Origin: Streptomyces sp. Je 1-369
GTDB lineage: Bacteria > Actinomycetota > Actinomycetes > Streptomycetales > Streptomycetaceae
Direction of reading: 5' to 3'
Length of the DNA: 64,000 bases
NCBI RefSeq assembly: GCF_026810505.1
Contig: NZ_CP101750.1
Coordinates: forward strand, 2,633,448-2,697,447
In this document: positions 5,166 to 53,777 of the stretch, piece by piece
Numbering within the stretch: the stretch's first letter is position 1
How the letters are laid out: every line of letters starts with the position of its first letter
Made by a program: the position numbers and the translations under genes
Notes under the pieces: generated by a model
What the model was told of the DNA's origin: nothing
The model's input: the letters and a program-made list of their open reading frames with translations, nothing else
Databases searched by the model: none

Positions 5166-5201
5166 CGGGCCATTCTCCCTGACCGGGGTCCGGGGGATTT
5201 C

Positions 5202-5280
5202 GAGCCCGCCGCTGCGCGGCGGATCACTCCCACCCGCCAACCCGTTCCCCCCGCGACGTTCAGCGGGAGCAGGGGCCCGG
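5202..5280. repeat. Dispersed intergenic repeat, copy 1 (CCGCCGC hairpin element)
   Basis: The copy starts with a hairpin-forming core, GCCCGCCGCTGCGCGGCGG, followed by a C-rich CCCACCCGCC..CCCGTTCCCC stretch and a weaker GACGTTCAGCGGGAG part. Two further copies in tandem lie at about 60692-60850. It sits just upstream of the AfsR-like start codon, so it occupies the promoter side of that gene. The rest of this intergenic stretch up to 5328 shows nothing recognisable. Confidence 0.75.
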
Positions 5281-14628: not shown

Positions 14629-14683
14629 GATCAGGCTTCTCCTTGGTGAGAGAGGGGGGTGCCAGGGGGGACGGTGCAGGGGG

Positions 14684-16150: not shown

Positions 16151-16185
16151 GAAGGGCTCCTCCAGGTCTGACAGGGCCTAGCTAA

Positions 16186-16204
16186 TTAGGTAAGGCTAAC
16201 CTAA
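16186..16204. promoter_or_regulatory. Perfect DmdR/IdeR-type iron box between htaA and hmuT operons
   Basis: TTAGGTAAGGCTAACCTAA is a near-perfect 19-bp palindrome of the actinobacterial DtxR/IdeR/DmdR box. It lies 36 bases before the HtaA start on the minus strand and 97 bases before the hmuT start on the plus strand, so one site can repress both operons. A TACGAT -10-like hexamer for hmuT follows at 16207. The rest of the 150-bp gap is featureless. Confidence 0.92.
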
Positions 16205-16300
16205 ACTACGATCACTCCGGACTGGAAGACCACAACCGGAATCCGGCCGGACCCGGTCACGGACACAGACCTCAACTACGCGACAGGACGGTGGACTTCG

Positions 16301-18423: not shown

Positions 18424-19289
18424 TCGGGGAGTTGGGCAGGAGGCTCTTCGCGGGCCGTGAACGGGCGCTGCCCGCGCCGGTCGCCCCGGGTGACGTCCTC
18501 GCCGAGACCGAGGGGCTGCGGGTGCGGCTCGGGGGGCGGGAGGTGCTCGGCGGGGTGCTGGGCGGGGTGTCGCTCGTCGCGCGCGCTGGTGAGGTGCTCG
18601 CCCTTGTCGGGCCCAACGGGGCCGGGAAGTCGTCCCTGTTGGCCGCACTGGCCGGTGACCTGCCGTCCGCCGACGGGATCGTACGCGTCTGCGGCAGGCC
18701 CGCCGCCGACTGGCCCGCCCCCGACCTCGCCCTGCGCAGGGCCGTGCTGCCGCAGTCCGCCGCGCTGTCCTTCCCCTTCCCCGTCGAGGACGTCGTCCGC
18801 ATGGGCCGCGCGCCCTGGGACGGGACACGGCGGGCGGACGACGACGACCGGATCGTGCGCGAGGCGATGGCGGCCACCGAGGTGACGGAGTTCGCCGCGC
18901 GCCCCTTCGCCGCGCTCAGCGGCGGCGAGCGGGCCCGGGTCGCGCTGGCCCGCGTCCTCGCCCAGCGCGCCCCGCTGCTGCTGCTCGACGAGCCGACCGC
19001 CGCCCTGGACCTGCGCCACCAGGAGCTGGTCCTGCGGATCTGCCGGGACCGGGCGGCGGCCGGTGACGCGGTCGTGGTGGTCCTGCACGATCTGGGGCTC
19101 GCGGCGGCGTACGCGGACCGGGTCGCGGTGCTGCGCGGCGGGACGATCGCGGCGGAGGGCACCCCCGGCGACGTATTCGGGGAAGCGCTGCTCTCCGAGG
19201 TGTACCGGCAGCCCGTCGAGGTCTTCCCGCACCCGCGCACCGGCGCCCCCGTGGTCGCTCCGCTACGGGACCCGCGCACCCCTGCTTGA
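18420..19289 (+). CDS. hmuV: Heme ABC transporter ATP-binding protein
   Basis: This is the ATPase of the heme importer (289 aa). It has Walker A GPNGAGKSSLL, Q-loop VLPQSAALSFPFPVEDVVRMGR (the HmuV-like Q-loop neighbourhood), signature LSGGERARVALAR, Walker B LLLLDEPTAALD and H-loop VVVLHDLGLAA. About 30 extra N-terminal residues precede the domain. It is the last gene of the hmuTUV operon. The next operon (efeO) starts 187 bp downstream behind its own iron box, and no clear terminator is visible between them. Confidence 0.94.
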   Translation: MIGELGRRLFAGRERALPAPVAPGDVLAETEGLRVRLGGREVLGGVLGGVSLVARAGEVLALVGPNGAGKSSLLAALAGDLPSADGIVRVCGRPAADWPAPDLALRRAVLPQSAALSFPFPVEDVVRMGRAPWDGTRRADDDDRIVREAMAATEVTEFAARPFAALSGGERARVALARVLAQRAPLLLLDEPTAALDLRHQELVLRICRDRAAAGDAVVVVLHDLGLAAAYADRVAVLRGGTIAAEGTPGDVFGEALLSEVYRQPVEVFPHPRTGAPVVAPLRDPRTPA

Positions 19290-19391
19290 CCGTTGCTTTG
19301 CCTGGTCATGGGCCCTCCATCAGGCAGCTGTGATCGGGCCGTGAGCGGTGGTGGACCGTGAGAGCTGAATCACGGAACGGGCGGGTATTAC

Positions 19392-19410
19392 CGAGGTAAG
19401 GCTCAGTTAA
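19392..19410 (+). promoter_or_regulatory. Degenerate iron box upstream of efeO
   Basis: CGAGGTAAGGCTCAGTTAA matches the core AGGTAAGGCT of the perfect box at 16186 and deviates mainly at both ends. It lies 66 bases before the efeO start, in the position expected for iron-dependent repression of the efeOBU operon. A second half-site-like GTTAGGT follows at 19411-19417. Confidence 0.65.
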
Positions 19411-19475
19411 GTTAGGTCCGCCTCGCCCGCCTGTGGCGTGGCCGGCGCCTGCCGTGAACCGTCTTGGAGCCACCT

Positions 19476-20657
19476 ATGCGACCCGTGCGACCCGCCCGTG
19501 TCCCCGTCGTCACCGCCGTCGTCGCCGCGGCGGCCCTGACCGCCGTCACCGGCTGCACGGAGAAGAGCGACGCCAAGGGCGGCGGGGCGAACAGTGTCAG
19601 CGTGACCGCCACCGACGACAAGTGCGAGGTCTCCAAGAAGGAGCTCACCGCCGGACACGTCGAGCTGGCCATCGAGAACAAGGGCTCCAAGGTCACCGAG
19701 GTCTACCTCCTCTTCCCCGACGACCGCATCGTCAGCGAGCGCGAGAACATCGGCCCCGGCACGAAGCAGAAGCTGACCGCCGAGGTGAAGGCGGGCTCGT
19801 ACGACATCGCCTGCAAGCCCGGCATGAAGGGCGACGGCATCCGCCAGAAGGTCACCGTCACGGGCGGCGGGAAGTCGGTCAAGCGCGACCCGCGGCTGGA
19901 CAAGGCCGTCGCCGAGTACCGGGCCTACGCGCAGGCGCAGGCCGACGAGACGCTGCCCGCCACGAAGACCTTCACCGACGCCGTGCGCGAGGGCGACCTG
20001 GACGCGGCGAAGAAGGCGTACGCCCCCTCACGCATCGGCTGGGAGCGCACCGAGCCGGTCGCGGAGTCCTTCGGCGACATCGACCCGAAGGTCGACGTGC
20101 GCGAGGACGGCCTCGAAGAGGGCCAGGACCTGGAGAAGGACTGGACGGGCTGGCACCGTCTGGAGCGCGCGCTGTGGAAGGACGAGAAGACCGGCAAGCG
20201 CGAGAAGGCGCTCGCCACGCAGCTCGACAAGGACCTCCTCGACTGGCAGAAGCGCGTCGGCAAGGCGGTCATCACACCGACCTCCATGGCCAACGGCGCC
20301 AAGGAGCTCCTCGACGAAGTCGCCACCGGCAAGGTCACCGGCGAGGAGGAGCGCTACTCGCACACCGACCTCGTCGACTTCAAGGCCAACGTCGAGGGCG
20401 CCCAGAAGTCGTACGAGCTCCTGAAGCCGGTCGCCGCCGAGAACGACCCGAAGCTCACCAAGGAGCTCGACAAGCAGTTCGCGGCGCTGAACAAGCTCCT
20501 GGAGAAGCACCGCGAGGGCGGCGCGGGCTCCTACACGTTCACGTCGTACGACAAGGTCGGCAAGGCGGACCGCAAGGAGCTGCACGACGGCGTCAACGCG
20601 CTGGCCGAGCCGCTGTCGAAGCTCGCCGCCGCCGTCGCCGTCGCCAAGACCAAGTAG
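19476..20657 (+). CDS. efeO: Iron uptake system lipoprotein EfeO
   Basis: This is the extracytoplasmic component of the Efe iron importer (393 aa). A lipoprotein signal ends TAVTGC near residue 26. A cupredoxin-like domain follows (about 40-135, with DKCEVSKKEL and DIACKPGMKGDG), then the M75/imelysin-like helical domain (about 145-390). The HxxE motif is present as GWHRLERALW, and GWERTEPVAESFGDIDPKVD is characteristic of EfeO. I chose the ATG at 19476, 6 bases after GGAG, over an upstream TTG that lies inside the ribosome binding site. efeB follows by 15 bp. Confidence 0.93.
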   Translation: MRPVRPARVPVVTAVVAAAALTAVTGCTEKSDAKGGGANSVSVTATDDKCEVSKKELTAGHVELAIENKGSKVTEVYLLFPDDRIVSERENIGPGTKQKLTAEVKAGSYDIACKPGMKGDGIRQKVTVTGGGKSVKRDPRLDKAVAEYRAYAQAQADETLPATKTFTDAVREGDLDAAKKAYAPSRIGWERTEPVAESFGDIDPKVDVREDGLEEGQDLEKDWTGWHRLERALWKDEKTGKREKALATQLDKDLLDWQKRVGKAVITPTSMANGAKELLDEVATGKVTGEEERYSHTDLVDFKANVEGAQKSYELLKPVAAENDPKLTKELDKQFAALNKLLEKHREGGAGSYTFTSYDKVGKADRKELHDGVNALAEPLSKLAAAVAVAKTK

Positions 20658-20672
20658 TGACTGGGGGGAACG

Positions 20673-21911
20673 ATGGCTGAGTCGACCACCTCAAGGCGTG
20701 CCGTGCTCGGCTGGGGCGGTGCCGGGCTCGCGCTCGGCGCGGCCGCGGCCGGTGGCGCCGTGGCGATGGCCCGCTCCGGCGACGCCGTGGCGCCCGCCGC
20801 CGAGCCGGGGGCCGCCGTCGCCTTCCACGGCGCGCACCAGGCCGGTATCGCCACCGCCGTCCAGGACCGGCTGCACTTCGCGGCGTTCGACGTGAAGACG
20901 GCCGACCGGGACGAGTTCGTGCAGCTCCTCAAGGACTGGACGGAGGCGGCGGCGCGGATGACCGCGGGCCACGCGGTCGGCGAGGGCGCGTACGGCGGGC
21001 TCGCCGAGGCACCGCCGGACGACACCGGCGAGGCGCTCGGCCTCAGGCCGTCCCGGCTCACCCTGACGATCGGCTTCGGCCCGTCCCTGTTCGGGAAGTT
21101 CGGGCTCGGCGACCGGCGCCCCGAGGCGCTCGTCGACCTTCCCAAGTTCCCCGGCGACAACCTCGACAAGGCCCGCAGCGGCGGCGACCTGTGCGTGCAG
21201 GCCTGCGCGGACGACCCGCAGGTCGCGGTGCACGCGATCCGCAACCTCGCCCGCATCGGCTTCGGCAAGGTCGCCGTGCGCTGGTCCCAGCTGGGCTTCG
21301 GCAAGACGTCGTCGACGACGCCGGACGCCCAGACGCCGCGCAACATGATGGGCTTCAAGGACGGCACGCGGAACATCGCGGGCACCGACGCCGCCGCGCT
21401 CGACCGGCACGTGTGGGTCGGCGAGAAGGACGGGCCCGGCTGGCTGACGGGCGGCTCCTACCTGGTGGCCCGCCGGATCCGCATGAACATCGAGACGTGG
21501 GACCGGACCTCGCTGCAGGAGCAGGAGGACGTCTTCGGCCGCGACAAGGGCGAGGGCGCGCCGGTCGGCAAGGCCAAGGAACGCGACGAGCCGTTCCTCA
21601 AGGCGATGAAGCCGGACGCGCACGTCCGCCTCGCCCACCCCGACACCAACGACGGGGCGACGATCCTGCGCCGCGGCTACTCCTTCACGGACGGCACCGA
21701 CGGCCTGGGCCGCCTGGACGCGGGCCTCTTCTTCCTCGCGTACCAGCGGGACGTCCGCAAGGGCTTCATCCCGGTGCAGCGCAGCCTGTCGCGCTCCGAC
21801 GCGCTCAACGAGTACATCCAGCACGTGGGCTCCGCGGTCTTCGCGGTCCCGCCGGGCGTCCGCGGCAAGGACGACTGGTGGGGCAGGGGCCTGTTCACCC
21901 GGGAGGCGTGA
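20673..21911 (+). CDS. efeB: Deferrochelatase/peroxidase EfeB (DyP-type, Tat-exported)
   Basis: This is a dye-decolorising-type heme peroxidase associated with iron uptake (412 aa). The N-terminus TSRRAVLGWGGAGLALGAA is a twin-arginine signal, so it is exported folded with heme. The DyP motif GFKDGTRN carries the distal aspartate, and HVRLAHPDTN holds the likely proximal heme histidine. The C-terminal FFLAYQRDVRKGFIPVQRSLS segment is typical. It sits between efeO and efeU, with a 4-bp gap to efeU. In other bacteria EfeB has been proposed to oxidise Fe(II) or to release iron from heme; which applies here is not shown by the sequence. Confidence 0.93.
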   Translation: MAESTTSRRAVLGWGGAGLALGAAAAGGAVAMARSGDAVAPAAEPGAAVAFHGAHQAGIATAVQDRLHFAAFDVKTADRDEFVQLLKDWTEAAARMTAGHAVGEGAYGGLAEAPPDDTGEALGLRPSRLTLTIGFGPSLFGKFGLGDRRPEALVDLPKFPGDNLDKARSGGDLCVQACADDPQVAVHAIRNLARIGFGKVAVRWSQLGFGKTSSTTPDAQTPRNMMGFKDGTRNIAGTDAAALDRHVWVGEKDGPGWLTGGSYLVARRIRMNIETWDRTSLQEQEDVFGRDKGEGAPVGKAKERDEPFLKAMKPDAHVRLAHPDTNDGATILRRGYSFTDGTDGLGRLDAGLFFLAYQRDVRKGFIPVQRSLSRSDALNEYIQHVGSAVFAVPPGVRGKDDWWGRGLFTREA

Positions 21912-40526: not shown

Positions 40527-40576
40527 CAGAAGCGGGTCGCAAGTGGGTCAGAAGCGGGTCAGGAGCGGGTCAGAAG
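40527..40576. repeat. Short 11-bp tandem repeat (CAGAAGCGGGT)
   Basis: Four to five imperfect copies of CAGAAGCGGGT run between the MOSC gene and the end of the convergent secreted protein, overlapping its stop codon at 40570-40572. The remaining bases of the 77-bp gap show nothing else. Confidence 0.6.
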
Positions 40577-41067
40577 ACGAACGGTCCCGGTGACTGCGCC
40601 GACGTCGCGTTGCACGTCACCGTGAGGCCGAAGACGACGATCTTCAAGGACTTGCCCTCCAGGCTGTCGCCCGCGGCGACGGTCCCGGTGAGCGGTCCCG
40701 TGGAGACGGCGCCACCGGCCGGGATGGCCGGGTTGGAGTTGCCGGTGAAGTCGGTCGTCCCCGTGCCGTTCTTCGCCAGCGTGAGCGTCGAGTTCACGGC
40801 GCCCGCCCCGATGTCGATCGGCGCGGTGATCGCCGAGGTCGACAGCGCGATGGTCGCGCTGGTGCCGTCCTGACTGGCGGTGAGTGTCGCCGTACCCGAG
40901 CCGTACGTTCCGCAGTCGAACGAGAGCGTGGCGCTCTGCGGTTCCACGGCGCCTGCCGCGGGCGCCATCGCGAGTGCGCCGACGGCGAGCGCGCCTGCAC
41001 CGAGAGCCGTACCGATTCCTGTGCCCAGTCCTATGCCGCGACCTGTGCCGAGTCTGCTGTTCCGCAT
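40570..41067 (-). CDS. Secreted protein, unknown function
   Basis: This is a 165-aa secreted protein. A Gly-rich signal peptide (MRNSRLGTGRGIGLGTGIGTALGAGALAVGALAMAPAAGA, given by its ends) is cut near residue 41. The mature part is beta-rich with Thr/Ala repeats (GTATLTASQDGTSATIALS, NSTLTLAKNGTGTTDFTGNSNPAIPAGG) and two cysteines (FDCGTYG and VTCNAT). Its pattern recalls actinobacterial secreted beta-sandwich proteins. The start is the ATG at 41067 with AGGCAGG upstream. It lies downstream of the NRPS gene but behind a terminator, so it is probably not part of the cluster. Confidence 0.72.
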   Translation of the reverse strand: MRNSRLGTGRGIGLGTGIGTALGAGALAVGALAMAPAAGAVEPQSATLSFDCGTYGSGTATLTASQDGTSATIALSTSAITAPIDIGAGAVNSTLTLAKNGTGTTDFTGNSNPAIPAGGAVSTGPLTGTVAAGDSLEGKSLKIVVFGLTVTCNATSAQSPGPFVF

Positions 41068-41270: not shown

Positions 41271-44200
41271 TCACCCTTCGCCCCGGAGCGCCTCCCCCAC
41301 CTCCCTCGCCAGGAGTCGGCCGTACGCCTCGGTCCAGGCCTCGACCGTGGAGCGGTCCCACAGGTCGGTCGAGTACTCCAGGTACCCGGAGAGCACGTCG
41401 CCCGTCGGGATCAGCCCGAAGTTGAACTCGGAGCGCGCGCCCGGGACCGCGAGGTCCTCCACCGCCGTGACCAGGCCCGGCAGCTCGACCTCCGTCTCCA
41501 GTGAGCTCTGGTACTGGAAGCCGAGCGGCAGCCGGTCCGGCACCTCCGTGCCCAGCACCGCGCTCACGTCCGCCGCCACCGCGCGGAGCGGCGCGGCGTG
41601 GTCGATGGCGCCGACGGAGGTGCGCGCCACCTGGTCCACCAACGCCCCGAACGACGCGGCCGCGTCACCCCGTATCCGCAGCGTGAAGGACGACACCGTG
41701 CAAGCGGCCAGCGCCTCGAACTCGCGCCGCTCGCGGTTGGCGTGGGAGATGCCGAGCACGACGTCGGGCCCCTGCTCCCCCACCTCCGCGACCAGCCGCG
41801 CGAACGCGGCCGCCGTCACCACGAAGGGCGTCGTACGGTGCCGTCGGGCCAGCTCCTCCACGTCGGCGCGGGCGCCCTCGCCCACCGTGAACAGGACCAC
41901 GTCACCCGCGCCGCTCAGCTCCGCGGGGCGGGGCCGGTCAAGCGGCAGCGGCATCCCGAAGCGGGCACCCGCCAGCTCCCGCGCCCAGTGGGCGACGAGG
42001 CGGTCCTTGTCCTGCGTACGGCTGTGCTCGCGCTGCCAGCGCGCGTACTCGCCCTGCTGCGGGAGGGTGTCGGCGGCCGGCAGGCCGTGCGGAGCCCCGG
42101 TGGCCTCGGTCCCGTACAGCGCCGCCAGTTCGCGCAGCAGCAGACTGACCGACCAGCCGTCGCAGGCCGCGTGGTGCAGGACGAAGAGCAGCACCCAGCG
42201 GTCGTGGTCCACGCGCATCAGGCGCAGTACGGGGGCGAGTTCGGCCTCGATGTCGTACGGGACGGCCGCCGTCTCCCCCGCGAGCCGATCCGCCTCCTCG
42301 GCCGCGGCGTCCGCCGAGCCGTGCCGCGCGAACAGGTCCTCTTCCGGCAGCTCCACGGGCCGCGCCCGCAGCGCTTCCTGCCACCACTCCCCGTCGCCGT
42401 CCGCCACGAAGCGGGTCCGCAACGCCTCGTGCCGGGCGATGAGTTGGGTGAACGCGGTGCGCAGGGCCGGCACGTCGAGCGTTCCCGTGAGGGTGAGTCG
42501 CATCGCCACGTTGTAGATCTGCGGGCGGGGGTGGGTGCGGTGGCGGGTGAGGAAGGCGGACTGCTGGGCAGTGAGGGGGGCGCGGGCGGGCGTGTCGCCG
42601 GGTTCCGCGACCTCGCCGCCCGCCGCGCGCCGGACGGCCTCCCCGTCCCCCGCCCGCCGGACGGTCGCACCGTTCACCGGCCGCTGGACGGTCGCACCGT
42701 TCACCGCCAGGTAGGCGGCCATCGCCCGGAACGTGGGCTCCTCGTAGAAGCGCGCCACGGGGTACTCCGTGCCGAACTCCTCCCGTACGCCGTTGGCCAG
42801 CCGGATCGCCGTGAGGGAGTGCCCGCCGAGCTCGAAGAAGGACACGTCCGGCGTGATCGCCGACGCGTCGATGTCGAACTCCTGGGCCCAGAGCCGCTTG
42901 AGCCGCGCCTCGACGGACGACGGCCGCGCCGCGGGGTTGGTCACGATGCCGGGCGCGGGCAGCGCGGCCCGGTCCAGTTTGCCGTTGCCGGAGAGGGGCA
43001 GCGCGGGCAGGACGGCCCAGGCGCGGGGCACGAGGTGGTCGGGCAGCCGTTCGGCGAGTTCCGCCGTCAGACGGTCGCTGAACCCCTGCGCCGACAGGTC
43101 GGGCGCGGGTACGTCGGGGTCGTGCACGTCCTCCTTCCGTACGACGTAGGCCACGAGGCGGGCGTCGCCGTGGTGGTCGCGGCGGGCGAGGACGACGGCG
43201 TCACGGACCCCGGGGAGACCGTTGAGCGCGCGGGACACCTCTTCGGGCTCGACCCGGTAACCGCGCACCTTCACCTGATCGTCCGTCCGGCCGCGGAACT
43301 CCAGCGCGCCGTCGTCGTTCCAGCACACCAGGTCGCCCGTGCGGTACATCCGCACATCGGTCCCCCGGGGATCGCGGACGAAGCGTTCGGCGGTCAGCTC
43401 GGGCCGTCCCAGGTACCCGGTGGCCACGCCGGGCCCGCCCACGTACAACTCCCCGACCTCGTCTCCGGAGACTTCACGGCCGCCCTCGCCGAGCACGCGG
43501 AGGATGACGTTGTGGACGGGCCTGCCGATCGGGATCGGCAGGTCGGGCCCCTCCGGGGCGCGCGGCCCGACCGTCGCGGCCGTGCACAGCACGGTCACCT
43601 CGGTGGGCCCGTACACGTTGACCGTCTCGTACGGCGCGCCGGGGCGCGGGCGGGTGCGCATCACGTCGCCGCCGAGCAACAGGTGCCGCAGGGGCGGCTG
43701 TTGGCTGACCGGGAGCGCGAGGACCGCCTCGCCGAGAGCGGTCGGCAGGATCGAGAAGGTGACGCGCCGCTCCGCGTACCAGCGGGCCAGCGCGGCCGGG
43801 TCCTTGCGGACCGTCTCGTCGGCCACGACGACGGTGGCGCCCGCGGTCAGCGCGGGCCAGATCTCCAGCGCGGCGGCGTCGAAGCCCTGGCTGCACACGG
43901 CGGCACTGCGGTCGTCCGCGGTGAACCCGAACCGCTCGTGATGCCACTGACAGAGATCGACGACGGCCCGGTGCGGAATGGCGACGCCCTTGGGGGTGCC
44001 GGTGCTGCCGGAGGTGTAGATGGCGAAGCAGAGGGAGTCGGGGGCGGTGGGCGACCTGTCGGGGGACGTGGTCGCGCGGGTGGGCGCCGGTGCCGTCACG
44101 TCCACCGGCACCGTTCCGGCCGGGGCCTTCGGTCGCGGGCCGGTGTCCCCGGCCGCGCTTCCGTTCGTGACCAGGATCCGCGCCCCGCTCTCCGCGAGGA

Positions 44201-47200
44201 TGGTCTCCGCCCGTGCCGTGCCCTGGGCCGGGTCCAGTGGGACGTAGCCGCGTCCCGACTTGAGGGACGCGAGCATCGCGACGATCAGGTCGGCGCCGCG
44301 CGGCAGCCACAGGGCGACCGGGGCACCGGCTCCCTCACCGACCGTACGGAACACCGCCGCGAGCCGTTCCGCCCGGGCCTCCAACTCGGCGTACGTCAGC
44401 TCGCCTTCGTCACTGAGCACCGCCGTCCGGCCGGGAGCCACCTGCGCCCACCGCGACGTCAGCGAGTGGACCGTGCTGCTCGTCCGCTGCCGGACCGGGC
44501 CGTGGCTCCACTCCCCCGACTCCGGCACCGGCACCGGCACCGCGGCGGCGGCGACGTCGTCCGCTCCCACCGCCGCCGCGAGGATGCCCCTGAACGTCCC
44601 GAAGAGCGCGTCGACCGTCGCCTCGTCGAAGAGGTCGGTGTGGTACTCCAGGTGGCAGCGGACGCCGTCCGGCAGGTCGGTGAAGTAGACGCTGAGATCG
44701 GTCAGCGCCTTGTCCGGGCCCGAGTCGAGCGGTGTCGCCCGCACCCCGGGCAGGTCGAAGCGGAACGGGTCGCCCGTCTCGAACTCGGCGAGTGTCTGGA
44801 AGACCGGCGTACGGTCGAGGGCGCGCGGCGGCGCCAGCTCCCGCACGACCGCCTCGAAGGGCACGTCGGCGTGGTCGTACGCGTCCAGGGCCACCCCGCG
44901 CACCCGGTCCAGGAGCGTGCCGAAGTCCGGGTTCCCGGTGAGATCGAGGCGCAGCGCCAGCGTGTTGACGAAGAAGCCGACCACGTCCTCGTACTCGGGC
45001 TTGCGGTCGGACATCGGCGTGCCGATGACCAGGTCGTCCTGGCCGGTGACGCGGTGCAGGGCGGCCGCGTACCCGGCGAGCAGGGTCATGAAGAGGGTGC
45101 TGCGGCGGGCACGGCTGAATTCCCGTACGCGGGCGGACAGTTCGGCGTCCAGCGTGCGGAACAGGGCACGGCCGTTGGACGTCATGACCGTCGGCCTCGG
45201 CCGGTCGGTCGGCAGGGCCAGGACGGGCAGGTCGCCGTCGAGCGCCTTCTTCCAGTACGCCAGGTCCTCGGCCGCCTTGGGGCCGCCCAGCGAGTCGAGC
45301 TGCGCGCGGGCGTGGTCCGCGTACGTGCGGGGGAGGGCCGGGAGGTCCGCCGACCGCTCGCCCGGCAGCTGCGCGCGGTAGAGGGCGGACACGTCGCGGG
45401 CGAGCACGGCCGCCGACGCCGCGTCCATCACGATGTGGTGCAGGGACAGCACGAGGACGTGCCGCCGCTCGCCGAGCCGGACGAGGCGCGTCACGAACAA
45501 CGGCCCCTCCGCCAGGTCGAAGCGGCGCGCGCTCTCCTGCCTCAGTACGGCGGCGACGGCGTCCCCGTCTCCCCCCGTACGGTCGGCTCCCGTACCGTCG
45601 CCTCCCGTACCCTCGACAATCTCGAAGTCCACCTCGCCCGGCGGGCGCGTGAACTGGCGCGGTTCGCCTGCCACGTCGCGGAAGACCGTGCGCAGCTGGC
45701 CGTGGCGCGCGGCGAGAGCGCGGAGCGCGGTCCGCAGCGCCGGAACGTTCAGCGGGCCTTCGAGCTCGATGGCCTTGGTCTCGTTGTACGCGGTGCGGCC
45801 GGGCAGCATCCGCTCCAGGAACCAGACGCGCTGCTGGCCGGGCGAGAGCGGAGCGCCCTGGTGGTCGGCGGATATGTGGGCGGCGGCTAGGTGGGCGGGG
45901 GCCGGTTCCGGGGCCTTCGGAAAAGCCGCAGGAAGAGCCGTCGAAAAAGCCGCAGGAAGAGCCGCAGGAGTCTCGTACGCGCCCCGCAACCCGTCGAAGT
46001 GCCGCAACCCGTCCCGCAGCGCCGCAGGGTCCACGCCGAAGTCGACGAGCCCGACGATCTCGTCCGCGCCCGCCGCGCGCACCGCGTCCACGACGGGCCG
46101 CACGCTCTCGGGGCTGCCGATGAGGGCGCGCTGGTCGCAGTAGCGGTCGTAGGCGCGGCGGAAGACCACGTCCAGGTCGTCCTCGGTCATCGTCGACATG
46201 TCGATCTTCTGGCCCAGGCTGTTCGCCACGTTGCCGAACAGGGACAGGGACGAGCGCATGTACCGGGCCAGGGGGTCGCGGGCGACGGCGCGGGCCGCCG
46301 CGTGGTCCTCGGCGAGGTAGGTGTGCAGCAGCACGGCCACGTGCCCGGCGTCCGGGTCCAGGCCGCACTCGGCGCGCGTACGGCGGTAGAGCGCGACGTT
46401 GTCGCGGAGCTGCTCGACGCTCTGGGTCATGAGGTTGGTGACGATGCCGACGTCGTTGCGCGCGGCCAGTTCGTACGACGCGGGGTTGCCGACGACCGCC
46501 GTGTACATGGGCGGCGCGTCCTGCACGGGGCGGGGGAACAGCCGCAGGTCGCTCTCGCCGTTCCCGGTGGTGCGGCGCACCGGCTCACCGCGCCACAACT
46601 TCCGCACCTCCGCGACCTGTTCGTACATCTTCTCCTTGTGGGTGCCGAAGCGCTCCGGGAAGAAGACGAAGTCGTTGGCGTGCCAGCCGCTCGCGCAGCC
46701 GATGCCGATCCGGCCGCCGGAGAGGTTGTCGACCATCGACCACTCTTCGGCGACACGGATCGGATCGTGCAGCGGCAGCACGACGGAGCCCGCGTTGATG
46801 CGGATGCGCCCGGTCTCGCGGGCGAGCGCGGCGGCGAGGACGACGGGGTTGGGGAAGAGGCCGCCGAAGGAGTGGAAGTGCCGCTCGGGGATCCACAGGG
46901 AGTGGAATCCGTGGCGGTCGGCGAACCGGGCGGTCTCCAGGAGGTGGTCGTACTTGCCGTGCCGGGACGTCGCCTCGTCGTCCTGCGGGTAGTCCCCGAA
47001 GAAGTAGACGCCGAAGTCGAGGGAGCGGGGCTTCTGTTCCACCCGCTCCGGTCGCTCGGCGGTCGCGGCCGCCGCCCGGTTCCAGGCCATGGCCTTCGGC
47101 TTCGCCGCGGGGACCACCGCCTTGTTCGCTGGCTTGTTCGCCCGCTTGTTCGCTGGCTTGTTCCCGAGCGGGAAGCCCGCCCCGCGCAGCTCCCGCAGGG

Positions 47201-48698
47201 AGTCCTTCACCGCGTCCACGATGAACTCAACGTCCCCGTCGGTGTGTTCGGTGGACAGGAAGAAGTTGCGCCACTCCCACACGTGCACGCCGCGCAGCAT
47301 CAGGTGGTGGTAGAGCAGTTCCATGTCCGCGCGGTGTTCGAAGCGGAACATCGAGCCGAAGTGGCTCATGCTCAGCGCGTATCCCTCGTCCTCGAAGAAG
47401 GAGTTGAGCGTGGTGGCGAGGTCGTCCGTGCGGGCGTTCAGCCGCTCCTGGAGACGCGGGCTGTGCTCCTTGAGGTGGGCGAGCACGGCGCGGGTGGCGA
47501 CCATAGACACCGGGTGCTGGATGTACGTACCGCCGAAGAACGTCGTGTCGGCGGCCGGATAGCTGGCGTCCCCGTAGCTCCAGTGGCCGCCGTCGATGCC
47601 GTCCATGATGTCGGCGCGGCCCGCGATGGCACCGATGGGGAAGCCGCCGCCGAGCAGTTTCCCGTACGTGGCGAGGTCGGGCGTGACCCCGTAGAGCTCC
47701 TGGGCGCCGCGCGGCGCGGGCCGGAAGCCGGTCAGCATCTCGTCGAAGAGCAGCACGATGCCGTGCCGACGGGTCAGCTCGCGCAGGCGGCGTACGAAGT
47801 CGGCGGGCCGGAGCGACGGATGGCGGCTCTGCACGGGCTCGACGAGGACCGCGGCGATGTCGGCGGCCTGCTGCTCGATGACGGCGAGGCTCTCCTCGCC
47901 GCCGTACGGCAGGACGAGCAGGTCGGCGACGGCGTTCGGCGGGACGCCCGCGGACATCGGGACGGTCGTCAGGCCCTCGCCGCCGGTGCGCGGGGAGCGG
48001 CCCAGCACGTTGTCGTTGTGGCCGTGGTACGCGCCCTCGAACGTGATGATGCGGGAGCGTCCGGTGGCGGCGCGGGCGAGCCGGATCGCCGCGGAGTTCG
48101 CCTCCGTACCGGAGTTGGCGAAGGCGACGCGCTCCATGCCGGTCAGCTCGGCGAGCAGCTCGGCGGCCTCGCCGGTCTCCACGTTGCGCGGGCCGAGCTG
48201 GATGCCGCGCGAGAGGTGCTCGCGGACCGCCTCGGTGACGAAGTCGGGCTCGTGGCCGAAGAGCAGGACGCCGAAGCCCATCGTGATGTCGACGTACCGG
48301 TTGCCGTCGATGTCCTCGAGCCACGACCCCCGCGCCCGCCGCCCCGCGATCGGGTACAGCATCTCCTTCGTACTGCTGCGGAAGCCGACCGCCGCCCTGC
48401 TGTCGGCGAGCACGCGCCGGTAGCGCTGGGCGATGCTCTTGGACGTGGGCGTCTTCGCGGTGTAGCGGCGCACCAGGTCGTCGAGGTGGGCCCGCTGGGT
48501 GTCGGAGGCGTTGCCGCGGAGCATGCCGGAGCCGCGGGCGACCTCCGGGCGCGGCCCGTGCTGGGCGGCCCGGGGTGCCGGGGAGTCCGCCGCCTCCTCC
48601 TGGGTGCCCATCTGCCGGGCGATGCGCTGCGACAGCTCGGCCATCGCCGCGAGGTCCTGGTCGACGGCGGCGGATACGGTGTCTGCTCCCCCGGTCAT
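41271..48698 (-). CDS. Hybrid megasynthase: aminotransferase - luciferase-like monooxygenase - C - A - PCP - C
   Basis: This 2475-residue assembly-line protein holds six domains (approximate residues). First is a class III aminotransferase (70-510) with PLP lysine near 343 in TYGKLLGGGFPIGA. Next is an FMN-dependent luciferase-like monooxygenase (555-905, LDFGVYFFGDYP, LWIPERHFHSFGG) of the natural-product LLM type. A condensation domain (940-1385, HHIVMDA) and an adenylation domain (1430-1905, YTSGSTGTPKG, NVYGPTE, GNGKLDR) follow. A PCP (FFELGGHSL near 1959) and a second condensation domain (2040-2475, HHAACDG) complete it. No thioesterase or reductase is present. The aminotransferase and monooxygenase should turn an ACP-bound beta-ketoacyl chain into 3-amino-2-hydroxyacyl, then join it to one amino acid. 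The start ATG overlaps the PKS stop (ATGA). The linkers contain PANK and NGATV repeats. Confidence 0.93.
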   Translation of the reverse strand: MTGGADTVSAAVDQDLAAMAELSQRIARQMGTQEEAADSPAPRAAQHGPRPEVARGSGMLRGNASDTQRAHLDDLVRRYTAKTPTSKSIAQRYRRVLADSRAAVGFRSSTKEMLYPIAGRRARGSWLEDIDGNRYVDITMGFGVLLFGHEPDFVTEAVREHLSRGIQLGPRNVETGEAAELLAELTGMERVAFANSGTEANSAAIRLARAATGRSRIITFEGAYHGHNDNVLGRSPRTGGEGLTTVPMSAGVPPNAVADLLVLPYGGEESLAVIEQQAADIAAVLVEPVQSRHPSLRPADFVRRLRELTRRHGIVLLFDEMLTGFRPAPRGAQELYGVTPDLATYGKLLGGGFPIGAIAGRADIMDGIDGGHWSYGDASYPAADTTFFGGTYIQHPVSMVATRAVLAHLKEHSPRLQERLNARTDDLATTLNSFFEDEGYALSMSHFGSMFRFEHRADMELLYHHLMLRGVHVWEWRNFFLSTEHTDGDVEFIVDAVKDSLRELRGAGFPLGNKPANKRANKPANKAVVPAAKPKAMAWNRAAAATAERPERVEQKPRSLDFGVYFFGDYPQDDEATSRHGKYDHLLETARFADRHGFHSLWIPERHFHSFGGLFPNPVVLAAALARETGRIRINAGSVVLPLHDPIRVAEEWSMVDNLSGGRIGIGCASGWHANDFVFFPERFGTHKEKMYEQVAEVRKLWRGEPVRRTTGNGESDLRLFPRPVQDAPPMYTAVVGNPASYELAARNDVGIVTNLMTQSVEQLRDNVALYRRTRAECGLDPDAGHVAVLLHTYLAEDHAAARAVARDPLARYMRSSLSLFGNVANSLGQKIDMSTMTEDDLDVVFRRAYDRYCDQRALIGSPESVRPVVDAVRAAGADEIVGLVDFGVDPAALRDGLRHFDGLRGAYETPAALPAAFSTALPAAFPKAPEPAPAHLAAAHISADHQGAPLSPGQQRVWFLERMLPGRTAYNETKAIELEGPLNVPALRTALRALAARHGQLRTVFRDVAGEPRQFTRPPGEVDFEIVEGTGGDGTGADRTGGDGDAVAAVLRQESARRFDLAEGPLFVTRLVRLGERRHVLVLSLHHIVMDAASAAVLARDVSALYRAQLPGERSADLPALPRTYADHARAQLDSLGGPKAAEDLAYWKKALDGDLPVLALPTDRPRPTVMTSNGRALFRTLDAELSARVREFSRARRSTLFMTLLAGYAAALHRVTGQDDLVIGTPMSDRKPEYEDVVGFFVNTLALRLDLTGNPDFGTLLDRVRGVALDAYDHADVPFEAVVRELAPPRALDRTPVFQTLAEFETGDPFRFDLPGVRATPLDSGPDKALTDLSVYFTDLPDGVRCHLEYHTDLFDEATVDALFGTFRGILAAAVGADDVAAAAVPVPVPESGEWSHGPVRQRTSSTVHSLTSRWAQVAPGRTAVLSDEGELTYAELEARAERLAAVFRTVGEGAGAPVALWLPRGADLIVAMLASLKSGRGYVPLDPAQGTARAETILAESGARILVTNGSAAGDTGPRPKAPAGTVPVDVTAPAPTRATTSPDRSPTAPDSLCFAIYTSGSTGTPKGVAIPHRAVVDLCQWHHERFGFTADDRSAAVCSQGFDAAALEIWPALTAGATVVVADETVRKDPAALARWYAERRVTFSILPTALGEAVLALPVSQQPPLRHLLLGGDVMRTRPRPGAPYETVNVYGPTEVTVLCTAATVGPRAPEGPDLPIPIGRPVHNVILRVLGEGGREVSGDEVGELYVGGPGVATGYLGRPELTAERFVRDPRGTDVRMYRTGDLVCWNDDGALEFRGRTDDQVKVRGYRVEPEEVSRALNGLPGVRDAVVLARRDHHGDARLVAYVVRKEDVHDPDVPAPDLSAQGFSDRLTAELAERLPDHLVPRAWAVLPALPLSGNGKLDRAALPAPGIVTNPAARPSSVEARLKRLWAQEFDIDASAITPDVSFFELGGHSLTAIRLANGVREEFGTEYPVARFYEEPTFRAMAAYLAVNGATVQRPVNGATVRRAGDGEAVRRAAGGEVAEPGDTPARAPLTAQQSAFLTRHRTHPRPQIYNVAMRLTLTGTLDVPALRTAFTQLIARHEALRTRFVADGDGEWWQEALRARPVELPEEDLFARHGSADAAAEEADRLAGETAAVPYDIEAELAPVLRLMRVDHDRWVLLFVLHHAACDGWSVSLLLRELAALYGTEATGAPHGLPAADTLPQQGEYARWQREHSRTQDKDRLVAHWARELAGARFGMPLPLDRPRPAELSGAGDVVLFTVGEGARADVEELARRHRTTPFVVTAAAFARLVAEVGEQGPDVVLGISHANRERREFEALAACTVSSFTLRIRGDAAASFGALVDQVARTSVGAIDHAAPLRAVAADVSAVLGTEVPDRLPLGFQYQSSLETEVELPGLVTAVEDLAVPGARSEFNFGLIPTGDVLSGYLEYSTDLWDRSTVEAWTEAYGRLLAREVGEALRGEG

Positions 48699-51600
48699 CG
48701 GCCCGCCTGCGCGGTGAGCAGCTGGGAGAGCTGTCCCATCAGCTGGAGCTGCACCTGCGTGAGCTGCTGGAGCTGCCGCCGGAGCTCTTCGACCTCTTGA
48801 CGAGTGGCGTACGCGTCATGACGCGTGGCGTCCACGGCGACAGGCGGAGTCTCGCGGGCGGCCGGACGCTCCTCAGCCGCCGCAACGGGGGCGGGGGCCG
48901 CAGCAGGGGCCGGAGCCGCGGCGGGGGCCGGAGCCGCCTTGCCCGCGATGATCACCGCGAGCCCGCGCGCCGTCCCCGCCTCCTCGAAGAGCTCCCGCAT
49001 CGAGACCTTGACCCGGTGCTCCTCCTCCAGCTCGCGCAGCACCCCGATCATCTGCAACGAGTCCGCGCCGAGGTCGAAGAAGGACGCGTCCTCGGCTATC
49101 TCGCTGGTGTCGTAGCTGAGGTGCTTCGCGGTGACCTTGATGATGTGCTGGAGCACCCGCTCGACCGCTGCTTCGTCCTGTGCCACTTCCGCCCCATCCC
49201 TGATCGGTTGTTCGGGTTGTACGTGCTGTACGGGTTGTTCGGGTCGTACGGGCCGGGGAAGGTAGTTCTCCGGCCCCGTCCAGTAGTCCTTGTGCTGGAA
49301 GCGGTATCCGGGCAGCGGGATCCTGCGGCCGCCCACCCCATCCACGAGGGTCCGCCAGCCGACCGGCGCCCCGGCCCGGTACAGTCCGGCGGCCGCGTCC
49401 CACAGCGGTGCGAGCCCCGCACCGCGCCGCAGTGTCGGATGCGCGGCCCGGCCCGGGAGCGCCTGGCGGGCGAGGCTGCTGAGGGTCGTGTGCGGGCCGA
49501 TCTCGACCAGCGTGCCAACGATGTCGTACGAGACGCGCAACTCCCCGAGCACGTCGGCGAACCGGACCGGCTCACGCGCCTGCCGTACGAGATAGTCGGC
49601 GTCCGGTACCCATCCGGCCGGGCGCGTACGCCCATCGAGACCGCTCACGAACGGCACGCGGCTCCCCCGCCGCACCACCCCGCCGACGAGCTCCCGGAGC
49701 CCGTCGAGTGCCGGGTCCATGAGGGCCGTGTGGAAGGCGTGCCGCACCGGGAGTTCACGTGCGTGGATGCCGCGCTCGGCGAGGAGTTCCGTCAGCCGTG
49801 CCATGGCGGCCGCCGGGCCCGCGAGGACCTGGCTGTGTTCGCCGTTCGTGACGGCGAGCTCCACGCCGGGCACCTCCGCCGCCAGCTTCCGCGCCGTGTG
49901 CGTGTCCGTCGGGACGGCGACCATCGCGCCGGGCGCGCACCGCTCCCGCATGAGCCTCCCCCGCCCCGCGGTCAGCCGCAGCCCGTCCTCGGCACTCAGC
50001 ACACCGGCGGCGTACAGCGCGCCGTACTCCCCCACGCTGTGCCCCGCCACCACGTCCGGCTCGATCCCGGCCTCCCGCCACAGGCGGACGAGTGCGCACT
50101 GCAACGTGAAGAGGGCGGGTTGCGCCACCTCGGTGTCCAGGACCGGCTCGCCCGTGTCCGCGCCCCGGGGGTCACCCAGCAGCGCGTCGAGGAGGCCGCC
50201 CCCACCGGTGAGGTCCGCGAACTGCCGCTCGCGGGCGTCCAGGGTTTCGCGTACGACGGCGAACCGCTCGTACAGGGGACGGGCCGCGCCCCGGTGCAGG
50301 CTGCCCTGCCCCGTGAAGAGGAACCCGGCACCGCCCCCGCCCGAAGGCCGTGCCCCCGCCCGTGACCGCGGCCGCGTGAGCCAGTCGTCCAGCGCCCCGC
50401 TCAGCGCCGCCACCGTGTCGCCGCGCACCGCGAGCCGGTGTCCGCGGTGGGAGCGGCCCAGGGCCAGCGTGGTCACGAGGTCGGCGTGGTGCGTGGCGGG
50501 GTGGGCGCGCAGGTGGTCGCGGAGGGCCGTGGCGTTGTCGGCGAGCGCCTTCTCCGTGTGGCCGGAGACCACCAGGACGCCCGGGGGACTCGGAAAGCCC
50601 GGCTCGTCGGCGGTCGCCCGGGGCGCGGGCGCGGGGGCCTCCTCCAGGACGACGTGGACGTTGGTGCCGCCGACCCCGAACGAGCTGACGCAGGCCCTGC
50701 GCGGCCCGTCGCCCGCGGGCCACGGGCGCGCGGCCCCGGGGATGTAGAACGGGCTGGCCGCGAGGTCAAGGGCGGGGTTGGGGCGGCGGAAGTTGGCCAT
50801 CGGCGGGATGACGCGGTGCCGTAGCACCAGGAGCGCCTTGACCAGGCTCGCCAGGCCCGAACACACGTCGAGGTGACCGATGTTGGCCTTGACCGAGCCG
50901 AGCGCGCAGTAGCCCGTGCGGTCGGTGTCGGCGCGGAACGCGGCCGTGGCGCCCGCGAACTCGATGGGGTCGCCCTTGAACGTGCCGGTGCCGTGCGTCT
51001 CCAGGTAGCCGACCGTGCCCGCGTCGACGCCCGCCCGGTCGAGGGCCCGGCGGATCGCCCCGCGCTGGCCGGCCGCGCTGGGCGCGCTGAACGCCTTCTT
51101 GTCCGCGCCGTCGTTGTTGACGCCCCAGCCCCGGATGACGCCGTGGATGTGGTCGCCGTCCGCGAGGGCCCGGTCGAGGCGCTTCAGCACCAGCGCCACG
51201 ACGCCCGTACCGCCGACGGTCCCGTCCGCGTCGGCGTCGAAGGGGCGCAGGCGGCCGCTCTTGGAGAGGATGGACCCCTTGACGTACTGGTACCCGATCA
51301 CCTGCGGCACGTGCAGGGCGGTGGCCCCGGCGACGGCGATGTCGCACTCGCCCGCGACCACGGACTGCGCGGCGAGGTAGGCCGCGGTGAGCGAACTGGA
51401 GCACGCCGTCTGGACGTTGACCGCGGGCCCTGTCAGGCCGAGCCGGTAGGCGGCGCGGTTCGCGGTGAAGTCGGTGAAGTTGCCGATGGTGACCTGGAGT
51501 CCGGCGACCCAGTCCGCGATGCCGCCCTGGAGGACGTTGTTCTGGAGGTAGGTCTGGAGGGAGTAGAGGTGATAGCCGGTACTGGCGTACACCCCCACGT

Positions 51601-52012
51601 CACGGGCACCGCCATCCGCTCCCGGTTCACCCGCGTACCCCGCGTTCTCCAGCGCGTGGTGGACGCACTCCAGGAACAGCCGCTGCTGCGGGTCGGTGAT
51701 CCGCGCCTCGTGCGCGCTCATCCCGAAGAACCCCGCGTCGAACCCCGCGATCCCGTCGAGCACCCCGCTCGCCCCGACGAACTCCTCGGCCCGGTACACC
51801 TCCTCGGGCACCCCGGCGGCGGCGAGTTCGTCCTCCGTGAAGCGGCGGATGCGGTCGGCGCCGTCGTGAATCGTGCGCCAGAACTCCTCCGGGGTGTCGG
51901 CGCCGGGCAGCCGAAAGGACATCCCGATGACGGCGACGGCGTCACGTGCAGGAGCGGAGGCAGGGACAGGAGCAGGGACAGGAGCGGGGGCAGGGGCAGG
52001 GGCTGTGGTCAT
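48695..52012 (-). CDS. Type I polyketide synthase module KS-AT-ACP
   Basis: This single PKS module (1105 aa) has an Ala/Pro-rich N-terminus and a ketosynthase (about 28-450) with TACSSSL near 203, ETHGTGTFKGDP near 340 and KANIGHLD near 375. The acyltransferase (about 530-830) has GHSVGEYGAL near 656 and HAFH near 758, the malonyl-CoA signature. An ACP follows with DLGADSLQM near 982. A C-terminal coiled coil (EVEELRRQLQQLTQVQL) is a likely docking tail for the next protein. There is no KR, DH or ER, so the product stays a beta-ketoacyl-ACP, as the following aminotransferase needs. There is no loading domain, so the starter acyl group must come from a free acyl-CoA or in trans. The ATG at 52012 overlaps the exporter stop. 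Confidence 0.93.
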   Translation of the reverse strand: MTTAPAPAPAPVPAPVPASAPARDAVAVIGMSFRLPGADTPEEFWRTIHDGADRIRRFTEDELAAAGVPEEVYRAEEFVGASGVLDGIAGFDAGFFGMSAHEARITDPQQRLFLECVHHALENAGYAGEPGADGGARDVGVYASTGYHLYSLQTYLQNNVLQGGIADWVAGLQVTIGNFTDFTANRAAYRLGLTGPAVNVQTACSSSLTAAYLAAQSVVAGECDIAVAGATALHVPQVIGYQYVKGSILSKSGRLRPFDADADGTVGGTGVVALVLKRLDRALADGDHIHGVIRGWGVNNDGADKKAFSAPSAAGQRGAIRRALDRAGVDAGTVGYLETHGTGTFKGDPIEFAGATAAFRADTDRTGYCALGSVKANIGHLDVCSGLASLVKALLVLRHRVIPPMANFRRPNPALDLAASPFYIPGAARPWPAGDGPRRACVSSFGVGGTNVHVVLEEAPAPAPRATADEPGFPSPPGVLVVSGHTEKALADNATALRDHLRAHPATHHADLVTTLALGRSHRGHRLAVRGDTVAALSGALDDWLTRPRSRAGARPSGGGGAGFLFTGQGSLHRGAARPLYERFAVVRETLDARERQFADLTGGGGLLDALLGDPRGADTGEPVLDTEVAQPALFTLQCALVRLWREAGIEPDVVAGHSVGEYGALYAAGVLSAEDGLRLTAGRGRLMRERCAPGAMVAVPTDTHTARKLAAEVPGVELAVTNGEHSQVLAGPAAAMARLTELLAERGIHARELPVRHAFHTALMDPALDGLRELVGGVVRRGSRVPFVSGLDGRTRPAGWVPDADYLVRQAREPVRFADVLGELRVSYDIVGTLVEIGPHTTLSSLARQALPGRAAHPTLRRGAGLAPLWDAAAGLYRAGAPVGWRTLVDGVGGRRIPLPGYRFQHKDYWTGPENYLPRPVRPEQPVQHVQPEQPIRDGAEVAQDEAAVERVLQHIIKVTAKHLSYDTSEIAEDASFFDLGADSLQMIGVLRELEEEHRVKVSMRELFEEAGTARGLAVIIAGKAAPAPAAAPAPAAAPAPVAAAEERPAARETPPVAVDATRHDAYATRQEVEELRRQLQQLTQVQLQLMGQLSQLLTAQAGR

Positions 52013-53346
52013 CGGGGGGCCTCGCTCTCGCGCTCCACGGACACGTCGCCGCGCCGGTGCGGCGGCTCCTGCGCCACCGGTAAGGGTTCGCCGGACACCG
52101 CTCTCCGCCCTTGCCGCACCAGGACGACGAACATCCCGAAGCACAACGCGATGGCCAACCCGTGCAGCAGCCCCACGACTTGGAACGGCGAGAAGCGGTC
52201 GAGCAACGCACCGCTGACCAGCATGCCGAGGCCGAACCCGGTGTTCTCGACCGACGCGGAGAGCCCGAACAGCCTGCCGCGCTGCTCGTCGGGGGTCGCC
52301 TGGAGGCGGGTCACGTAGGCGATCTCGGTGAGCCCGTCGGCCATGCCCGCCACCAGCGCGGCCACGACCGCCACGTACGTGGGCAGCCCCGCGAAGACCA
52401 CGATGAACGCGGCCGACATCACGCACGCCCCGACCGCGAACGCCTGCTCCCCCGGCCCCTGCCGCCCGCCGCGCCCGGCCCACCGCCCGCACACCTGCTG
52501 CATGACGATGTTGCCGATGGCCCACGTCGCCCAGAACTGGCTGACGAACGTGGCCGGATGGGACGGGTCGAGGTCGCTGGAGTAGACCGGCAGGGCCACG
52601 TTGTGGGAGGAGGAGCCGAGGCCGTCGGCGGCCCTGAGCGCGATCATCACGGCGAGGACGGGGGCGGCCCGCAGCAGAATCATCGCACCGACGCCACGCC
52701 CCCCGGAGTCCCCCTTCGCCTCGCCCTTCTGAGCGCCCCCGTCCTTCTCCCGCGTACGGATCGGCAGGGAGAGAAGGACGCACGCGGAGACCGCGAACGT
52801 GGCGGCGTCGAGGGAGATCGCGGCGACGTAGCCGAGCTGCGCGACCACGACACCCGCGGAGGCGAAGCCCGCGATCATGGCGAGCGAACGGCCCGTCGCG
52901 AGCAGCGAGTTGGCGCGCAGGCGCAGGTCGCCGCCGACGATCTCGGGGATGCTGCTGCGCAGCGAGACGCCGGAGAGGGTGGAGCAGAAGCCGGTCACGA
53001 CGGCAAGGACGTACAGCAGCCCGGCACGGCCACCGTCGGGCGCGATCAGCAGCGCTATCATGGCGGCGCACTGTGTGAGATCGGCGCCGACCATCAACAT
53101 CTTCCGGTCGTACGCCGAGACCAGCCGTCCGCTCACAAAGCCGGAGACGACACTGGTCAACAGGCGTACGGCCATGAAGATTCCAGCGGCCAGGGCGCTG
53201 TCGGTCACCTCGTAGATGAAGACGTTGAGGGCGACCATGTTCAGGTAACTGCCGTACGCCGATATGCCGTTGCCCACGACGAGCAGGCGAAAGTGCCGCA
53301 AGCTATCCCCCTGGTCCACGCGCCGGGCTGCCTTGAGAACGTGCAC
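52009..53346 (-). CDS. MFS transporter, probable exporter of the PKS-NRPS product
   Basis: This is a 12-helix major facilitator (445 aa) of the EntS/MFS_3 exporter type: HFRLLVVGNGISAYGSYLNMVALNVFIYEVTDSALAAGIF in the first helices, RLVSAYDRKMLMVGADL in loop 2-3 and a long basic loop with TREKDGGAQKGEAKGDS between the halves. It is the first gene of the three-gene biosynthetic operon and is coupled to the PKS by an ATGA overlap, so export and self-protection are likely roles. The GTG start at 53346 has no clear ribosome binding site; GTG 53316 is an alternative. Confidence 0.9.
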   Translation of the reverse strand: MHVLKAARRVDQGDSLRHFRLLVVGNGISAYGSYLNMVALNVFIYEVTDSALAAGIFMAVRLLTSVVSGFVSGRLVSAYDRKMLMVGADLTQCAAMIALLIAPDGGRAGLLYVLAVVTGFCSTLSGVSLRSSIPEIVGGDLRLRANSLLATGRSLAMIAGFASAGVVVAQLGYVAAISLDAATFAVSACVLLSLPIRTREKDGGAQKGEAKGDSGGRGVGAMILLRAAPVLAVMIALRAADGLGSSSHNVALPVYSSDLDPSHPATFVSQFWATWAIGNIVMQQVCGRWAGRGGRQGPGEQAFAVGACVMSAAFIVVFAGLPTYVAVVAALVAGMADGLTEIAYVTRLQATPDEQRGRLFGLSASVENTGFGLGMLVSGALLDRFSPFQVVGLLHGLAIALCFGMFVVLVRQGRRAVSGEPLPVAQEPPHRRGDVSVERESEAPR

Positions 53347-53558: not shown

Positions 53559-53777
53559 ATGCCAGTAAGCAGCCGCCCACCGAACCCGCCGGCGTTGTCC
53601 CACAGGGAGCGTCAGGTGCTGGCCCACATCGCGGCAGGCCTCTCCCACAAACAGATAGCCCGGCGTCTGGGCATCAGCGTGCACACCGTGAGCACGTACT
53701 TGCGCCGCATCCGGAGCAAGCGCACCGCGCCCACGGTGGCCCATCTGATCCACCTCAGCCACACGGAAGACTGCTGA
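53559..53777 (+). CDS. Small LuxR-type helix-turn-helix regulator
   Basis: This 72-residue protein consists almost only of a LuxR/NarL DNA-binding domain: ALSHRERQVLAHIAAGLSHKQIARRLGISVHTVSTYLRRI is the four-helix core. There is no sensor or receiver domain. The ATG at 53559 follows GGAGGG by a short spacer; the open frame extends to 53511 without a better start. It is divergent from the exporter-PKS-NRPS operon across 212 bp, which makes it the best candidate for the pathway regulator. No TTA codon is present in the gene. Confidence 0.82.
   Translation: MPVSSRPPNPPALSHRERQVLAHIAAGLSHKQIARRLGISVHTVSTYLRRIRSKRTAPTVAHLIHLSHTEDC

Follow-up and report, generated by a model that had tools for sequence, protein, structure and literature searches.

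A 64,000-nucleotide stretch of the genome of Streptomyces sp. Je 1-369 (contig NZ_CP101750.1, positions 2,633,448 to 2,697,447; the whole stretch is referred to here as the window) carries three coupled genes on its minus strand that encode, in order, a transporter of the major facilitator superfamily (MFS), a type I polyketide synthase (PKS), and a nonribosomal peptide synthetase (NRPS). The operon very probably builds small peptides that start with a 3-amino-2-hydroxy acid, the group through which bestatin blocks aminopeptidases. We consider it plausible that it is a minimal line for assembling a peptide of the bestatin type, which would probably inhibit metallo-aminopeptidases. More tentatively, the three-gene family to which it belongs could be the one, so far missing, that makes bestatin and related compounds: self-contained, self-exporting, primed by acyl-CoA, releasing its product with a terminal condensation domain, and present in about one in eight to one in eleven Streptomyces species. 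If the family does make bestatin, dozens of sequenced Streptomyces would be candidates for new members, and the architecture would provide a compact two-protein model in which outside priming, β-amination, α-hydroxylation, and release by a terminal condensation domain are combined.

Domains and predicted chemistry

A preliminary description of this DNA had read the coupled genes as a ketosynthase (KS), acyltransferase (AT), and acyl carrier protein (ACP), followed by an aminotransferase (AMT), a luciferase-like monooxygenase (LLM), a condensation (C) domain, an adenylation (A) domain, a peptidyl carrier protein (PCP), and a second C domain. Domain searches recover all of these in that order, with the third coupled gene encoding the MFS protein, a presumed exporter. 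In the PDB, mycosubtilin synthase subunit A holds the aminotransferase closest to the AMT domain (6kfm, E = 4.3e-129), and the LLM domain is closest to PuwE (6ket, E = 6.3e-108). The LLM also matches the NCBIfam family TIGR04020 (MupA/Atu3671 family) with 436.6 bits against a cut-off of 244.45. These similarities lead us to expect an intermediate in which one amino acid follows a 3-amino-2-hydroxyacyl unit, and the chemistry proposed in the preliminary description is well supported by homology. The puwainaphycin paper assigns an AMT-monooxygenase pair to a 3-amino-2-hydroxy-4-methylacyl unit (PMC4219810); as that assignment is itself bioinformatic, the function of the pair in the window is predicted by homology. 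A 2026 preprint gives such a domain pair a like role in Athmu-type residues (PMC13252402).

The AMT-LLM part was used as a query on named bacterial and archaeal genomes and returned 74 loci, four of which (L071-L074) hold a distant aminotransferase only, leaving 70. The ordered core MFS-KS-AT-ACP-AMT-LLM-C-A-C was scored by script in 50 of the 70, a count that includes two loci with fused genes (L041 and L065) and one of different layout (L070). Contig ends account for 17 of the 20 misses; L038 and L064 failed by order, with a weak query for the terminal C domain choosing another C domain, and the last is the Rhodococcus locus L046. The catalytic residues are invariant in the aligned rows: the KS cysteine and both histidine motifs (59/59), the AT serine (59/59), GADS of the ACP (56/56), the AMT lysine (67/67), HHxxxD of the first C domain, C1 (64/64), and of the terminal one, C2 (62/62), and GGHS of the PCP (54/54). 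Judged by sequence, the arrangement of the operon is not due to chance, because the PDB matches have such low E values, the ordered core recurs in 50 of 70 relatives, and the active-site residues are invariant.

The Pfam and NCBIfam searches found neither a loading nor a reducing domain in the PKS. Since the PKS lacks its own loading domain, the KS would take an acyl starter from primary metabolism, for which phenylacetyl-, isovaleryl-, and isobutyryl-CoA are candidates. The AT, whose HAFH motif we take to be of the malonyl type (across 59 rows the motif reads RAFH in 46, HAFH in 12, and QAFH in 1), would supply malonyl, from which the KS and ACP would form a β-ketoacyl-ACP; lacking a ketoreductase (KR), the line would leave the ketone in place. 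The PKS tail would then dock onto the NRPS N terminus, where the AMT is predicted to convert the ketone to an amine and the LLM to hydroxylate the α carbon, giving 3-amino-2-hydroxyacyl-ACP. C1 would couple this unit to a single amino acid, probably hydrophobic, loaded by the A domain onto the PCP. The terminal C domain could release the product either by condensing it with a free amine, such as a free amino acid, or by hydrolysis, and the MFS protein would export it. The likely activity of such a product is inhibition of metallo-aminopeptidases through its 3-amino-2-hydroxyacyl group.

Comparison with known lines, priming, and release

The label "microginin-like" given in the preliminary description is not supported as a classification. 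The microginin cluster (mic) loads octanoate with a fatty acyl-AMP ligase (FAAL) and an ACP, and carries a thioesterase besides its two to six NRPS modules (PMC12250027). In the cluster and its Pfam-searched neighbors there is no FAAL/ACP loading (a genome-wide FAAL search was not made), the PKS starts with its KS, and by Pfam domain search the NRPS gene has one A-PCP pair, no thioesterase, and an intact C domain at its end. With both defining features of the microginin cluster absent, membership in it was rejected. The layout of PuwE-type lines is present, with a non-reducing PKS module, a class-III aminotransferase, and a luciferase-like monooxygenase preceding a C domain. Puwainaphycin PuwE, like the nostophycin, tychonamide, and microginin lines, shares KS-AT-ACP, the AMT and monooxygenase, and C-A-PCP with the window (PMC4219810). 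Unlike these lines, the window has no FAAL/ACP or other loading part, divides PKS and NRPS between two genes, adds only one amino acid, ends in a C domain without a thioesterase, and comes from Actinobacteria. Mycosubtilin MycA, of the iturin family, provides the closest solved homolog of the AMT domain, but MycA is not known to have an LLM and makes a β-amino lipopeptide without the α-hydroxyl group. It also differs from the window in being loaded by a FAAL (PMC4219810). A 2013 survey lists the Streptomyces griseus protein G0PR31 as "PLP1-Luc-C-HxxPF-CP-C", which is the order of the window NRPS, although the entry names no A domain (PMC3870968). G0PR31 is, from this order, very probably a member of the window's family; it appears in the survey as a table row without product or cluster analysis (PMC3870968). 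The AMT-oxygenase logic is already known, and the present family is a variant of it for which we found no published product in the open-access literature.

The relatives of the operon occur in two forms. PKS and NRPS are separate genes in 53 loci, and in 52 of these a start was found at the same 4-base overlap; in the split-gene loci a coiled-coil-like tail ends the PKS and a conserved segment opens the NRPS, and the two are presumed docking partners. Nine other loci, none under a Streptomyces name, have a continuous PKS-NRPS or a cut link. Four of the nine were searched with Pfam (L038, L041, L046, and L064), and in each of them the KS is preceded by a KR. A single A domain precedes the KR in L046; L038, L041, and L064 contain a second stretch of A domain that the search does not place and that we take to precede the KR. 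This A-KR arrangement before the KS corresponds to a loading module that would take and reduce an α-keto acid. In a tree of the LLM domain, midpoint-rooted for drawing only, the eight rows of the fused or cut form that have an LLM stand apart, with support of 95/87 and 96/97, from the other 59. The Streptomyces form, in contrast, would have to be primed from outside, most simply by acyl-CoA.

Since the cluster does not fix the starter, a longer acyl chain supplied in trans could yield a short lipopeptide, according to the true microginin logic, with a 3-amino-2-hydroxyacyl group but another target than that of bestatin. Lipopeptide lines are known to carry the AMT-LLM pair (PMC4219810, PMC12250027), and in locus L008 an acyl-activating protein (665 aa, Pfam AMP-binding), with a relative in L011, is encoded just upstream of the MFS gene. 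However, no FAAL and no loading ACP turned up in the cluster or in those neighboring window genes that were searched with Pfam, genes of this kind do not recur in the flanks, and the loading part of the four tested fused relatives contains a KR rather than having the layout of a fatty-acid ligase. We regard a lipopeptide as rather unlikely.

At the other end of the line, C2 is a complete condensation domain with the C domains of Txo2 and Txo1 as its closest PDB matches. The C-A-C spacing is standard in 59 of the 70 loci, with the stop codon no more than 30 residues after the C2 match, and from this stop to the end of the locus none of the 59 shows another KS, AT, A, or C match on the same strand (at least 3 kb is available there in 55). 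The 11 other loci comprise eight that are cut or short, L068 with broken frames, L046, which ends after one C domain, and L070, with further PKS/NRPS-like matches downstream. These numbers, together with the lack of a recurrent partner family in the flanks, make it improbable that the operon is one step of a larger pathway in which C2 passes the chain to an A-PCP protein encoded elsewhere and the real product is a longer peptide. Such a pathway would accord with the many other NRPS places in the genome of the window, with the KS-like, A, and C matches about 3 kb beyond the C-like domains of L070, and with the PKS/NRPS genes that face the version ending after one C in Rhodococcus rhodnii (L046). 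Terminal C domains that cyclize their product occur in fungi, and the intact, conserved C2, the last domain in the standard-spacing loci and not accompanied by a thioesterase, might likewise close a ring. Attack of the β-amine on the aminoacyl thioester would then give a seven-membered homo-diketopiperazine or a similar compound, with no free-amine warhead left. This outcome, too, is improbable: the Txo2 and Txo1 domains closest to C2 in sequence are presumably ordinary chain-elongation domains, and nothing observed points to cyclization.

A related cluster in a bestatin producer

Bestatin, probestin, phebestin, and amastatin are Streptomyces aminopeptidase inhibitors in which a 3-amino-2-hydroxyacyl unit is joined to one or more amino acids, and their structures belong to the product class predicted for the window. 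Bestatin (ubenimex), an aminopeptidase inhibitor in clinical use, is the dipeptide 3-amino-2-hydroxy-4-phenylbutanoyl-leucine. As this molecule amounts to a phenylacetyl starter, a malonyl unit, the AMT and LLM reactions, and one amino acid, the module order of the operon fits bestatin if phenylacetyl-CoA primes the PKS and the A domain takes leucine, a fit of logic and not a proof. Read at positions anchored on sequence motifs, the A-domain code is DALSLGVVLK in 37 of 62 rows, and 15 further rows differ from it by no more than two changes. The ten deviating rows are L038, L041, L042, L044, L057, L064, L065, L066, L070, and L046, where the A match lies in the opposite-strand gene. Since 52 of the 62 rows fall within two changes of one code, most of the Streptomyces family probably uses the same amino acid. 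The code DALSLG(V/I)VLK looks hydrophobic but is not decisive for leucine, and the starter is not encoded by the cluster.

Streptomyces olivoreticuli ATCC 31159 is named as a bestatin producer in a title cited by PMC12472026. Its genome has 31 matches to the AMT-LLM query, exactly one of which spans both domains, and this locus (L040) contains an HTH-MFS-PKS-NRPS set like that of the window, with the A code DALSLGIVLK. At the aminotransferase places L076 (3897 bases) and L077 (4224 bases) of that genome, no KS, LLM, or C match was found in those short stretches. The orthologous cluster at L040 is the leading candidate for the bestatin genes. The earlier proposal of an aminopeptidase inhibitor of the bestatin or amastatin type thus gains some weight from a sole AMT-LLM locus in a bestatin-producing strain, the product itself being a prediction. 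Our search of the open-access literature (most subscription journals lay outside it) turned up no gene cluster for bestatin, probestin, phebestin, or amastatin and no paper that ties a cluster of the present kind to any of them.

Several points weigh against assigning bestatin to this family. With a match in about one in eight same-genus genomes (39/295), the presence of the cluster in a bestatin producer could be a coincidence. A conserved terminal C domain is seemingly superfluous for a dipeptide unless C2 hydrolyzes, and no self-resistance aminopeptidase is present among the five Pfam-searched flank proteins of L040. The 2013 survey gives the antiSMASH prediction "Mal-Thr" for the S. griseus homolog (PMC3870968). 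Finally, the product class is a prediction from the genes, and the specificities for leucine and phenylacetyl are assumptions.

Two further features of L040 concern its gene set. A thiamine-diphosphate enzyme (Pfam TPP_enzyme; L040:1990-3864, minus strand) is encoded about 1.4 kb upstream of the MFS gene and is possibly of interest for starter supply. A fusion of MFS and PKS was ruled out, the MFS frame stopping before the KS.

Gene layout, distribution, and surroundings

Both junctions within the operon are 4-base ATGA overlaps (Table 1). The start of the PKS is most likely the ATG at 52012 that overlaps the MFS stop codon; a 1458-aa open reading frame at 48695-53071 is over-long, its N-terminal extension being an out-of-frame overlap with the MFS gene. 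A sequence scan found no promoter-like sites (0.2 in shuffles) and two terminator-like sites (2.7 in shuffles).

Table 1 Positions in the window of the operon genes, their domains, and the divergent gene beside them.
Feature	Position	Strand	Basis
NRPS-type synthetase AMT-LLM-C-A-PCP-C, 2475 aa	41271..48698	-	Pfam + NCBIfam
Terminal condensation domain C2, active-site HHAACDG intact, final domain of gene	41274..42596	-	Domain profile
Peptidyl carrier protein (PCP), FFELGGHSL	42708..42905	-	Domain profile
Adenylation (A) domain, motif-anchored code DALSLGVVLK	42978..44453	-	Domain profile
Condensation domain C1, HHIVMDAA	44568..45854	-	Domain profile
LLM domain, presumed α-hydroxylase	45981..47027	-	Best PDB match 6ket; TIGR04020
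AMT domain, class III, PLP lysine motif YGKLLGGG	47172..48509	-	Best PDB match 6kfm
NRPS N-terminal segment, presumed docking helix	48603..48677	-	Similar sequence in split-gene loci; function and helix inferred
Type I PKS KS-AT-ACP, 1105 aa	48695..52012	-	Pfam + NCBIfam, start reassigned
PKS C-terminal coiled-coil-like tail, presumed docking partner	48698..48832	-	Similar tail in split-gene loci; function inferred
Acyl carrier protein (ACP)	48956..49141	-	Domain profile
Acyltransferase (AT), HAFH motif	49457..50323	-	Domain profile
Ketosynthase (KS)	50789..51943	-	Domain profile
MFS transporter, 445 aa, presumed exporter	52009..53346	-	Profile match
LuxR/GerE-type HTH protein, 72 aa, presumed regulator, divergent from operon	53559..53777	+	Domain search

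The 39 same-genus matches counted above are at E ≤ 1e-200 and include the window's own genome; for 27 of them one stretch covers both domains, and for the other 12 the listed match is confined to the aminotransferase half. Three of the relatives have features of their own. In the LLM tree, locus L016, whose record bears the name Streptosporangium nondiastaticum, falls among the Streptomyces rows beside S. roseoverticillatus, which suggests a naming issue or a recent transfer. In L046 a giant gene encodes A, KR, KS, AT, AMT, LLM, and one C domain and faces an opposite-strand PKS/NRPS set, an arrangement that suggests a longer product. L070 (Streptomyces sp. SID12501) is a divergent member with a different NRPS part and more PKS/NRPS-like genes downstream.

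The gene for the presumed HTH regulator lies divergently beside the MFS gene in 15 of 54 testable loci by direct search. When up to 5 kb of either flank was compared in six frames, this family appeared in 16 of the 70 loci, and no other flank family in more than 10; the next are one family in 10 loci (a GH64 β-1,3-glucanase in L032) and others in 9 or fewer. No starter-making genes recur beside the operon in the flank comparison of the 70 loci. Neither the four Pfam-searched flank proteins of L008, L012, and L032 nor the searched window neighbors include a self-resistance aminopeptidase. The other searched neighbors in the window appear unrelated to the operon. One flank holds a DEAD-box helicase, an EamA transporter, AraC, TetR, and an RNB-domain protein, and the opposite flank a small secreted-like protein, MOSC, a methyltransferase, DoxX, and PhoD. 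The small secreted-like protein (40570-41067, minus strand), just downstream of the NRPS gene, is matched only in L002 and L039 among the fetched loci. In two relatives, L081 and L082, which have no AMT-LLM match at E ≤ 1e-200, the surroundings of the MOSC gene share only MOSC with the window, and no insertion boundary could be drawn from this comparison; the cluster-carrying L083 matches the window from PhoD to MFS.

Elsewhere in the window, positions 13096-21911 are probably an iron or heme uptake region, encoding two HtaA-domain proteins, the ATPase of an ABC transporter, an imelysin-cupredoxin protein, and a Dyp-type peroxidase, and a large regulator with BTAD (SARP-type) and AAA domains is found at 1851-5240, far from the cluster. 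The same genome has a second, different cluster at ~4.89-4.93 Mb of C1 (L078:2742-5321, L078:5548-10241, and L079:2832-6266), which combines NRPS genes with a B12-binding radical SAM enzyme, a CP-AMT-C protein, and a luciferase-like monooxygenase that stands alone. In the LLM tree, the monooxygenase of this second cluster is very distant from that of the window.

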